From contig JAQYVW010000034.1 of NCBI GenBank assembly GCA_030145325.1, forward strand, positions 1 to 32,622: 32,622 nt of DNA. The letters run 5' to 3'. Positions 1-3,045 of this stretch are shown here, piece after piece (position 1 is the first letter of the stretch; the number at the start of each line of letters is the position of its first letter). The translations under genes and the position numbers were made by a program. The stretch is from Desulfurivibrionaceae bacterium. GTDB lineage: Bacteria; Desulfobacterota; Desulfobulbia; Desulfobulbales; UBA5123. Under the pieces are notes generated by a model. It saw only the letters and a list, made by a program, of their open reading frames with translations. It searched no databases and was not told the origin of the DNA.

Positions 1-2156
1 AGGAGGTTTGTTGCGGTATTGAAATCGTCGTGGAGGATATGCCATTTTGCCATACTTAGAATCGTAAAGTTGTTGTGGGGCGCAATTTGCTGTGCCTGGT
101 CAATTATGTAGTGGAGGGGGGGGCCGTTTAGAAGTGGGTAGTAGTTGAATATAAAGTTCGCTGTGTGCATGTACGTTCTATACTTCCAATTAGTACTGTA
201 GGTTTTGTCGTTATTGATGTTGGCTCGATAGTTGTTGTCGCTATTCTTTTTGATGGTCGTAGTGATTTTGCTTTCCGTGGTCTTGAATTCATTCTCGTTG
301 GGGTTTGTCTCAATAGCTTTTTTGATAAAGAATAGTGATCTGTCATATTGTCTCATCTCAAAAGCAAGTTCGGCGAGGATTTCGAATACGGATTCTTCTT
401 TCCCATCCCACTTTATGCCTCGTTCATTTTCCGATTTATCCCTTAGGCTTAAATATAAAGAGGCTATATTCTTGTATATGTCATCGTCGGTAGGGTTGAC
501 TTGTAACGCCTTTACGTAGAATTTTAAGGCATTGTGGTAATCATGAAGGGCGAGAAAGGATTCGGCGATATTTTTCATCAACGTTGGGTAATCCCGACCA
601 TTTACATTCTGTAAATCTACCCTTTTTAGTAATGAAGTGGCCTCGGCAATGGCTTCAGCGTGTTTACCTTGGTGCTGTAGGGAGATCAGGATATTGTTGA
701 TTGCCAGGATGTCTTCTTCGTAAAATTCTCTGCCACAGGAAAGTGCCTTGCGGCCCATTTTAATTGATTCTTTGTATTTGCCGTTGATGCCGAGGGCTAC
801 CGCATAGTTAGCCGAGGTCCGAGCTTTTTGGGGGTACTTTGTGTACGAATCTTTGTAGATGGAGGTGTAGCTTTGCCAGGCATCGTTTCGAATTGTTGTT
901 AACAGCGATAAAGTGCAGGCAATTAATATGAAAAAGACAAGAGCTGTTTGCCTTGCTTCGTTCTGGTTGTGATGAAAAAAATGATCAAAGAGGGAGTCAA
1001 AGGCGACAATCAGGCAGATGGCGAAACCCAAAGAGGGCAGGTACAGGCGGTGTTCAAAAATGAGTTCCAGGGGGATGAAGGTTGACTCAATGACCAGATT
1101 TAAAAAAAAGAAAAATATCCCAAACGAACATAAGGGGTTGTTTTTACGAATTTTGTAAGCAAAAAACAGTAAAAAAAGAATAATTGCCAAGGATAATATG
1201 GTGGTGGGTGGGGAGAGTAAAGAGGTTGAGAGGTCGAAGTCATGATCCAAGGCCATGTGTCCCGGGGCAGGGAAAAGGAGGAGTGAGATATAGAAAACAA
1301 CCACCCTTGACTCGGTTAACAATCGTTCGCCCATGGAAAAGTGGCGCGTTGTGTAACCTGAGGTCACATGTTCAAATGGCGCTGAGAGTAAGGGTAGTAG
1401 CAGTAGTGCGGTTAAGGCAAAGAAAAAATAATGTTTTTTAGTGAGGCGTTTCAGGGCAAGTGAGGCTCCGTCCGGGTTGATGAGTATGGTTTCGGTCAGC
1501 AATAATGTGAATGGGATGGTTGCGGTATTCTCTTTTGATAATAAAGCGCAGGTCGTTGCGGCAAAACATAGGAAGAAAAATAGACATTGCTTAGTCGTAG
1601 TCTGTGTTTGGCGGCCAAGGATATAGAAGAGGGTGGCGCCAAAATAGAAGAAGGCGGCGAGGCTGGTCATTCTTTGCACTACATAAGTCACCGCACTTGT
1701 CTGGATGGGGTTGAGTGCCCAGATTATCGCAATATAAATGGGTATGTATGACGTGCTCAGGGAACGGAGGGATTTTTTTGCCCCGGCCGTTTTTAATAGT
1801 GCCGAGCAGAGGATTACCACCAGTACGGCATTGGCGAGATGAATTAAAATGTTGGTTATGTGGTAGATGGTAATCGTTTGTCCTTTGCCGATAAGGTGAT
1901 CGATGGCAAAGGTAGCAATGGGAATGACCCGCAAAGCGCCAAACTCAGATCCGAGAACCTTTTGTAATTCATGGATGGAGAGATCTTTTAGGTAGACGTT
2001 GGAGTTGTCAATAAAGCTATGGAAATCGTCAAAGACGAATGGTGAATATAGAGTGTTGGCATAACCTGCCATGATTAAAAATAAGCTAAAGAGCAGCAGG
2101 TGAAAGGGGGAGATGGTAAGCGAATGCTTGCGAAGGCGTATTTGGATTGGATTCAT
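1..2156 (-). CDS. Membrane GT-C/TMTC-like protein with TPR C-terminus (partial, runs off left edge)
   Basis: The frame is open from an ATG at 2156 to the window edge (about 718 residues, no stop), so the 3' end is missing. I translated it by hand and sampled it along its length without finding a frameshift. The N-terminal half holds many hydrophobic segments. It carries hallmarks of bacterial TMTC-like/TPR membrane proteins: FVFDDFHSFIDN near residue 40 (the acidic first-loop motif of GT-C glycosyltransferases), YHITNILIHLANAVLV, and NPIQTSAVTYVVQRM, where the usual H of HPIQT is N. The C-terminal half is soluble and repeat-like, with TPR-type helices (for example TSANYAVALGINGKYKESIK). GT-C proteins of this kind transfer lipid-linked sugars on the periplasmic side of the inner membrane. 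Its place directly after pilA suggests a role in pilin glycosylation or pilus biogenesis, which is inference. The family is confident, the substrate unknown. Confidence 0.75.
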   Translation of the reverse strand, partial: MNPIQIRLRKHSLTISPFHLLLFSLFLIMAGYANTLYSPFVFDDFHSFIDNSNVYLKDLSIHELQKVLGSEFGALRVIPIATFAIDHLIGKGQTITIYHITNILIHLANAVLVVILCSALLKTAGAKKSLRSLSTSYIPIYIAIIWALNPIQTSAVTYVVQRMTSLAAFFYFGATLFYILGRQTQTTTKQCLFFFLCFAATTCALLSKENTATIPFTLLLTETILINPDGASLALKRLTKKHYFFFALTALLLLPLLSAPFEHVTSGYTTRHFSMGERLLTESRVVVFYISLLLFPAPGHMALDHDFDLSTSLLSPPTTILSLAIILFLLFFAYKIRKNNPLCSFGIFFFFLNLVIESTFIPLELIFEHRLYLPSLGFAICLIVAFDSLFDHFFHHNQNEARQTALVFFILIACTLSLLTTIRNDAWQSYTSIYKDSYTKYPQKARTSANYAVALGINGKYKESIKMGRKALSCGREFYEEDILAINNILISLQHQGKHAEAIAEATSLLKRVDLQNVNGRDYPTLMKNIAESFLALHDYHNALKFYVKALQVNPTDDDIYKNIASLYLSLRDKSENERGIKWDGKEESVFEILAELAFEMRQYDRSLFFIKKAIETNPNENEFKTTESKITTTIKKNSDNNYRANINNDKTYSTNWKYRTYMHTANFIFNYYPLLNGPPLHYIIDQAQQIAPHNNFTILSMAKWHILHDDFNTATNL

Positions 2157-2178
2157 ATTTATTGCTAAATTGTAAAAA

Positions 2179-2228: not shown

Positions 2229-2672
2229 TTATTCGCCGCCTAAGCCAAGTTTGTCAGCCAGACAGCCACCCAAGGTCCATTTTTTGATCTTGCCATTGTC
2301 TTCCTGCGGTGAGACGGTGAGGACATAGTCGTCAAGGTTACTGAATTTGTTGTCGGCTATGTTGTCAATGGTAATAGTAAGTTTACCAGCGTTAATGGCG
2401 ACGTTAAAGTAAGTGGTGTCGGCATCTTCCATCATGGAGGTCAATTGAGCGGTTTCCGGCATGTCATCATTGGTTGCATAGTAAAGGCCAACGGAATTCT
2501 CAATGGCATGCAGGCCAGGAAAAACCAAGGCGGTAACGCGGGATTTTTGAATGTAGGTCATGTAAGCCGGAATGGCTACGGCAGCCAGAATACCGATGAT
2601 GGCGACAACGATCATTAACTCGATCAGGGTAAAACCTTTTTCTCCGTTTTGTTTGCGAAGCATCTTGAACAT
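2229..2672 (-). CDS. pilA: Type IV major pilin (PilA)
   Basis: 147-residue prepilin. A 13-residue basic leader ends in Gly and is followed by the prepilin-peptidase site G^FTLIE with the conserved Glu5. The hydrophobic N-terminal helix is classic ([18 protein letters not shown]). The mature protein is about 134 residues, a normal major pilin length. It would be processed by PilD and polymerised into type IV pili for twitching, attachment or DNA uptake. A strong AAGGAGG lies 8 nt before the ATG and supports this start. Only one Cys is present (in GGCLADKLG near the C-terminus), so the usual disulfide-closed D-loop cannot form within one subunit. A -24/-12 promoter lies upstream, and a GT-C/TPR gene follows after a terminator. 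PilA is the best call; a minor pilin is less likely given the strong promoter, RBS and terminator. Confidence 0.93.
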
Positions 2673-2749
2673 GGTTGTTCCTCCTTGGGGTTGTTTTTCT
2701 TTGACAAAATAGCTGATAATTTTTGTCGGTTGTTTTGTCTTGTTTGTAT

Positions 2750-2765
2750 AGCATGAACCATGCCA
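2750..2765 (-). promoter_or_regulatory. Sigma-54 (-24/-12) promoter of pilA
   Basis: The minus strand reads TGGCATGGTTCATGCT, matching TGGCAC-N5-TTGCW with GG and GC at the required spacing. Transcription would start near 2738, leaving a leader of about 66 nt before the pilA ATG. RpoN control of pilA through PilS/PilR is known in other proteobacteria. Confidence 0.8.
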
Positions 2766-2901: not shown

Positions 2902-2960
2902 CAAGTGACAAAAAATGTCACATTTGGGCTGTGGGTGGGGGTGACATTTTTTGTCACTTG
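2902..2960. promoter_or_regulatory. Perfect 20-bp inverted repeat of nested palindromes, possible enhancer for pilA
   Basis: Arms 2902-2921 and 2941-2960 are exact reverse complements around a 19-nt G-rich centre. Each arm contains a 17-bp palindrome of the form GTGACA-N5-TGTCAC, one with A5 and one with T5 in the middle (centres 2913 and 2949, 36 bp apart). They lie about 140 and 180 bp upstream of the pilA -24 element, the usual distance for sites of sigma-54 activators. PilR sites elsewhere contain TGTC. It could also fold as a long hairpin after tRNA-Gln, but T-rich sequence does not follow the hairpin on the tRNA strand. Confidence 0.55.
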
Positions 2961-2971
2961 TTGAAAAAAAG

Positions 2972-3045
2972 TGGCTGGGGGACAGGGATTCGAACCCCGA
3001 TAGGCAGAGTCAGAGTCTGCTGTCCTACCATTAGACCATCCCCCA
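2972..3045 (-). tRNA. tRNA-Gln (anticodon CUG)
   Basis: 74-nt cloverleaf on the minus strand. The acceptor arm TGGGGGA pairs with TCCCCCA, the discriminator is G, and CCA is encoded. The anticodon stem GCAGA/TCTGC holds the loop CTCTGAC, giving anticodon CTG. The T arm contains GGTTCGAATCC. A T7 run begins two bases after CCA. A second glutamine tRNA (UUG) lies at 9516-9590. Confidence 0.96.

Follow-up and report, generated by a model that had tools for sequence, protein, structure and literature searches.

The pilA locus and its upstream region

The DNA analyzed here, hereafter the window, is a stretch of 32,622 nucleotides (positions 1-32,622 of contig JAQYVW010000034.1) from the 3,355,079-base genome of a Desulfurivibrionaceae bacterium (assembly GCA_030145325.1). 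Near its start lies a type IV pilin gene, pilA, preceded by promoter elements, two palindromes, and a tRNA gene:

2229-2672, minus strand: pilA, type IV pilin of 147 aa, with an N_methyl domain and a pilin-type start
2680-2685, minus strand: AGGAGG ribosome-binding site of pilA, as read from the sequence
2751-2765, minus strand: sigma-54 -24/-12 element TGGCATGGTTCATGC of pilA, a GG-N10-GC match whose similar counterparts in relatives lie equally far away
2905-2921, minus strand: predicted promoter-proximal enhancer site, GTGACATTTTTTGTCAC on this strand (site 1, plus-strand letters GTGACAAAAAATGTCAC), an exact 17-bp GTGACA-N5-TGTCAC palindrome with palindromic half-sites, unique and conserved before pilA
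2941-2957, minus strand: predicted promoter-distal enhancer site, GTGACAAAAAATGTCAC on this strand (site 2, plus-strand letters GTGACATTTTTTGTCAC), a second exact 17-bp GTGACA-N5-TGTCAC palindrome, likewise with palindromic half-sites, unique and conserved before pilA
2902-2960, no strand: perfect inverted repeat formed by both sites, with 20-nt arms and a 19-nt gap, itself unconserved
2972-3045, minus strand: tRNA-Gln(CTG), predicted with ARAGORN, a conserved upstream neighbor of pilA that is probably outside the switch

An earlier note on this DNA had described two 17-bp palindromes, 36 bp between centers, lying within a block that is as a whole a perfect inverted repeat. Both descriptions hold: the palindromes are exact, their centers are 36 bp apart (21 bp from core to core), and all 20 nt of the arm at 2902-2921 are complementary to the arm at 2941-2960 (100%). 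GTGACA-N5-TGTCAC has no further exact copy in the genome; given the base composition, one would expect 0.19 exact single sites and 5.6e-7 pairs spaced within 50 bp by chance. With up to two mismatches allowed, the motif occurs at 86 places, compared to 92 for a reversed control. A dispersed repeat was considered and rejected on these grounds, i.e., two exact copies only and no excess over the control at two mismatches. The 20-bp inverted repeat arises as a by-product, simply because both sites are palindromic and have A/T-rich centers.

Between the sites and pilA, TGGCATGGTTCATGC is the sole GG-N10-GC element of such a match; it has the invariant GG and GC, and its -12 box reads ATGC instead of TTGC. 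Both palindromes lie upstream of it, at measured distances of 140 and 176 bp from the upstream edge of the -24 element (2765), in line with the ~140 and ~180 bp given previously. No convincing site for IHF was recognized between enhancer and promoter: the best consensus match in this interval scores 6/9 here and 7-8/9 in several relatives, values that come from A/T-rich DNA and have no chance control. The gene that follows pilA (window 1-2159, minus strand) has, as judged by eye, the look of a multi-spanning membrane protein with repeats, and similar proteins also follow pilA at two other loci (L263, L268); it may be a conserved pilin partner, e.g., a glycosyltransferase.

Conservation of the tandem sites within the order

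Next, we evaluated how far the palindromes are shared among relatives. The exact 17-bp site was found in 13 of 58 genomes of the order, this genome included, and 13 loci from other genomes were read: a pilin follows the site at seven of them (L006-L012), but not at the other six. For pilA loci of relatives, collected with the pilin as query in a set that also includes motif-search loci, near-perfect sites occurred at a rate of 0.66 per pilin upstream region in the order vs 0.017 in shuffled sequence. Many of these regions carry a tandem pair, some of the listed second sites being weak. Where a good -24/-12 match exists, the center of the proximal site mostly falls 128-156 bp before the -24 GG. 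The relatives' -24/-12 elements are comparable to TGGCATGGTTCATGC, with a poor scored -24 element for several genes. Genes lacking a pair are mainly minor or divergent pilins, and some pilA-like genes (e.g., L049, L056) also lack one; one locus, L031, was scanned over the only 148 bp of upstream sequence present.

Specifically, we tested a tandem pattern consisting of two TGACA-N5-TGTCA cores separated by 5-35 bp, with the reversed pattern as a control. Of the 258 order genomes, 22 contained an exact tandem pair and none (0/258) the control. At one locus per genome, window included, a pilin lay ≤800 bp downstream in 18 of 22 cases, and in most of those 18 a -24/-12-like element separated pair and pilin. 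The earlier note had set scatter of the motif against its reading; instead, the motif is unscattered, being unique in the genome and pilin-linked at these order loci. In the multi-pair genomes G062, G113, and G050, several of the other pairs do not precede a pilin. Across the phylum, 395 sampled genomes yielded the tandem pair in 13 and the control in one.

A second concern had been that the motif might be missing upstream of pilA in close relatives. Since no PilA orthologue was recognizable in the genomes of the same genus or family (G001-G003), conservation of the pilA sites was judged at the order level, where the pair is present before pilA and mostly absent from minor or divergent pilins. 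In G001, a close PilR is missing as well (best match 44% identity), so that PilA and PilR may have been lost together, although the assemblies of G001-G003 are fragmented.

Two minor pilin genes, L058 (contig C23 of G000) and L045 (G002), have a perfect sigma-54 -24/-12 consensus upstream, e.g., TGGCACCTCTTTTGC, and no PilR-type sites upstream. These perfect matches may be chance occurrences within neighboring coding sequence.

Distribution across phyla

One scan of a bacterial and archaeal genome collection returned at least 118 stretches with a tandem pair. A pilin was found ≤800 bp away for 26 of the 118 pairs listed, compared to 0 of 14,391 random positions at the same loci. Among the matches listed, pilin-linked pairs occurred in Pseudomonadota, Thermodesulfobacteriota, Nitrospirota, and Acidobacteriota, and further pilin-linked records are titled only Deltaproteobacteria and placed by taxonomy in Myxococcota. 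Linkage to pilins followed the center of the palindrome: among the matches listed, 22 of 62 pairs with A/T-rich centers were pilin-linked, compared to 4 of 56 with other centers. Spacings of the listed pilin-linked pairs clustered around two or three turns of the helix (Rayleigh test at 10.5 bp, p 1e-4), a p value that is generous given that the species are related; helical phasing was not significant for order-level spacings alone, and the 36-bp spacing found here does not correspond to an integral number of turns.

In the cable bacterium Candidatus Electronema aureum (L144), a pilin gene is likewise preceded by this tandem pair together with a -24/-12 element. Elsewhere, pairs with other consistent centers, fixed spacings, and no pilin were observed in Pseudoalteromonas and similar bacteria (L075, L082, L093, L109, L114, L120) and in actinobacteria (L068, L076, L084, L105, L122), where they are probably sites of unrelated regulators. 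The same half-site letters are evidently used by other regulators elsewhere, and TGACA-N5-TGTCA alone does not identify PilR.

Candidate activators in the genome

The genome encodes RpoN (contig C33) and 14 full-type sigma-54 activators. One of these, on contig C75 and not near pilA, is a PilR with Response_reg, Sigma54_activat, and HTH_8 domains, whose gene adjoins that of a PilS with 6TM_PilS (65 bits vs a cut-off of 27), PAS, HisKA, and HATPase_c domains. NCBIfam named neither C75 protein PilS or PilR, all of its listed matches being below cut-offs. A match to the C75 PilR at E 1e-140 or better was found in 52 of 58 order genomes, and its recognition region, LLKISFRSLRYK, is nearly invariant in the 30 sequences read. 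At the Candidatus Desulfatibia locus L145, a tandem pair and a pilin come immediately after a pilR-like gene; among the 14 activators, the C75 PilR is the best match to this L145 protein (47.6% over 462 aa), as it is for the DNA-binding part. It is likewise the best match among the 14 to the activator at L102, while the activator near the pilin-linked pair of Candidatus Electronema (L144) best matches another paralogue, L187. On these sequence comparisons, PilR appears to be the best candidate activator, another activator being less likely.

Tandem pairs were also observed directly upstream of histidine kinase genes at three loci (L090:7769-7805; L268:2418-2452; L261:3081-3126), where they may reflect autoregulation. 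One of these three kinases has a weak, sub-threshold PilS-like match.

A proposed switch and the readings that compete with it

We propose that the palindromes are, very probably, tandem upstream activating sites (enhancers) through which PilR would act on the sigma-54 promoter of pilA. The earlier note had read them as enhancer sites of a PilR/NtrC-type activator, a reading now supported by the uniqueness of the pair, its linkage to pilins, and the presence of RpoN and PilR-PilS genes. A single PilR dimer would dock on each 15-bp core (TGACA-N5-TGTCA) via a Fis-type helix-turn-helix, with the state of PilR set by the membrane kinase PilS. PilR dimers on the two sites would then come together as an AAA+ ring; with the intervening ~140 bp of DNA looped, this ring would act on the closed complex of RNA polymerase and sigma-54 at 2765-2751, remodeling it so that pilA is transcribed. 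We infer PilR binding, ring assembly, looping, and the dependence of pilA on them; binding, ring assembly, and looping would follow the general mode of NtrC-type activators. Several features count against this proposal, namely the distant pilR, the 14 activators, the ATGC -12 box, the 36-bp spacing, the insignificant phasing within the order, the want of a convincing IHF site, the pilA-like genes without a pair, and the pairs that do not precede pilins.

The sites might be sigma-54 enhancer sites of pilA for an NtrC-type activator other than PilR. The number of full-type activators leaves room for such a protein, the activator near the Candidatus Electronema pair is closest to L187, and some pairs in relatives stand before non-pilin genes. 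We nevertheless regard this as unlikely, given that PilR adjoins PilS, is nearly universal in the order, and has a nearly invariant recognition region; that L145 has a pilR-like gene, a tandem pair, and a pilin side by side; and that pilin genes are established PilR targets (PMC2725144, PMC3262810).

The block might instead form an RNA or DNA hairpin tied to tRNA-Gln, e.g., a terminator or processing signal, an alternative that the earlier note had itself raised. The transcript does fold as a 20-bp stem (-27.4 kcal/mol, z -6.5), and tRNA-Gln(CTG), a conserved pilA neighbor, ends 11 bp before the block. However, no T-run follows the stem on the tRNA strand, where the letters are CAACTGCGTT, and the pairing is unconserved while the half-sites are conserved: among the pilin-linked pairs listed, the two central N5s are complementary in 3 of 26, identical in 8 of 26, and neither in 15 of 26, with half-sites persisting throughout. 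In addition, the distance between block and tRNA ranges from 11 bp to ~200 bp, and pairs at L077, L130, and L165 precede pilins with no tRNA detected nearby. We consider such a hairpin function very improbable. An intrinsic terminator of tRNA-Gln in particular was rejected, the stem ending without a T-run and the terminator scan not listing this site. In about ten relatives tRNA-Gln(CTG) neighbors pilA at variable distance, an arrangement that resembles common gene order more than a common function.

That the palindromes serve some unrelated regulator, such as a dimeric repressor, or that they paired up by chance, is about as improbable as the hairpin: the same half-sites do occur in Pseudoalteromonas and actinobacteria, with different centers and no pilin, whereas pairs with A/T-rich centers are pilin-linked in several phyla, a location ~150 bp ahead of a -24/-12 element is where an enhancer, not a repressor site, would be expected, and the chance expectation given above is minute.

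Comparison with known systems

Sigma-54 pilin promoters are known to be controlled by PilR (PMC2725144, PMC3262810, PMC6058289). The locus shares with the PilR-dependent pilA promoters of Pseudomonas aeruginosa, Geobacter sulfurreducens, and Azoarcus a sigma-54 major-pilin promoter, an encoded PilS-PilR system, and upstream activator sites (PMC6058289, PMC2725144, PMC3262810), but differs in that pilR is not adjacent to pilA. The sites differ too as far as described: according to PMC6058289, PilR sites of P. aeruginosa are NifA-like TGT-N11-AGA sequences with nearby GTCT elements, rather than TGACA-N5-TGTCA palindromes. For the D. vulgaris pili regulator DVU2114, the motif is presented in figure form.

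A tested precedent for tandem N5 palindromes is NmpR, an NtrC-like response regulator of Myxococcus xanthus that binds tandem GCGCA-N5-TGCGC palindromes at sigma-54 promoters (PMC11841059). Both systems combine two palindromes of 5-bp half-sites and an N5 center with a sigma-54 promoter (PMC11841059), and this N5 palindrome architecture is all that is common to the sites, whose half-sites are GCGCA/TGCGC there and TGACA/TGTCA here. The spacing between sites is usually 14-15 bp for NmpR, compared to 21 bp (core to core) here, and the NmpR targets are pilR and oxygen genes (PMC11841059). At pilE of commensal Neisseria, the two-component system Npa/Nps likewise activates a sigma-54 pilin promoter via an upstream activating sequence (PMC6528607); there, unlike here, where none was convincingly recognized, an IHF site contributes (PMC6528607).

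TGACA-N5-TGTCA as a PilR site was not found in the literature searched, which did not extend to most subscription papers or to the primary PilR-site papers (Jin 1994, the G. sulfurreducens survey), and we claim no novelty for this consensus.

Possible links to electron-transfer genes and significance

Beyond pilins, a relative with a PilR of 70% identity (G062) displays double or triple sites before pilA and before two giant multiheme cytochrome operons (L260:3297-3372 and L260:9085-9130). The cytochrome-operon sites are followed by the -24/-12 elements AGGCACAGTTCTTGC and AGGCACATATTTTGC, and both operons encode a small secreted-looking protein of ~117 aa, then a giant multiheme cytochrome as the second gene. 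These second-gene proteins, of 1465 and 1229 aa, carry 54 and 36 CxxCH motifs and Cytochrome_C7 matches. In G050 (L265), a pair precedes the gene of a six-CxxCH protein. The arrangement in G062 suggests that the predicted PilR regulon may reach electron-transfer genes there.

Overall, the biology is ordinary, i.e., a clear instance of a type of gene switch already known, with an operator definition that is sharper and widely shared. We tentatively raise the broader possibility, which we hold to be somewhat less probable than its contrary, that tandem TGACA-N5-TGTCA is a general PilR operator across phyla, extended in some relatives to extracellular electron transfer. Pili and electron conduits would then answer to a single two-component system. 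The loosely described PilR element becomes a testable palindromic consensus, with which pilin promoters and PilR regulons could be predicted across many uncultured bacteria, cable bacteria (Candidatus Electronema, L144) among them. Should the cytochrome sites of G062 prove real, they would offer a direct test of whether PilS-PilR couples pilus production to extracellular electron transfer.
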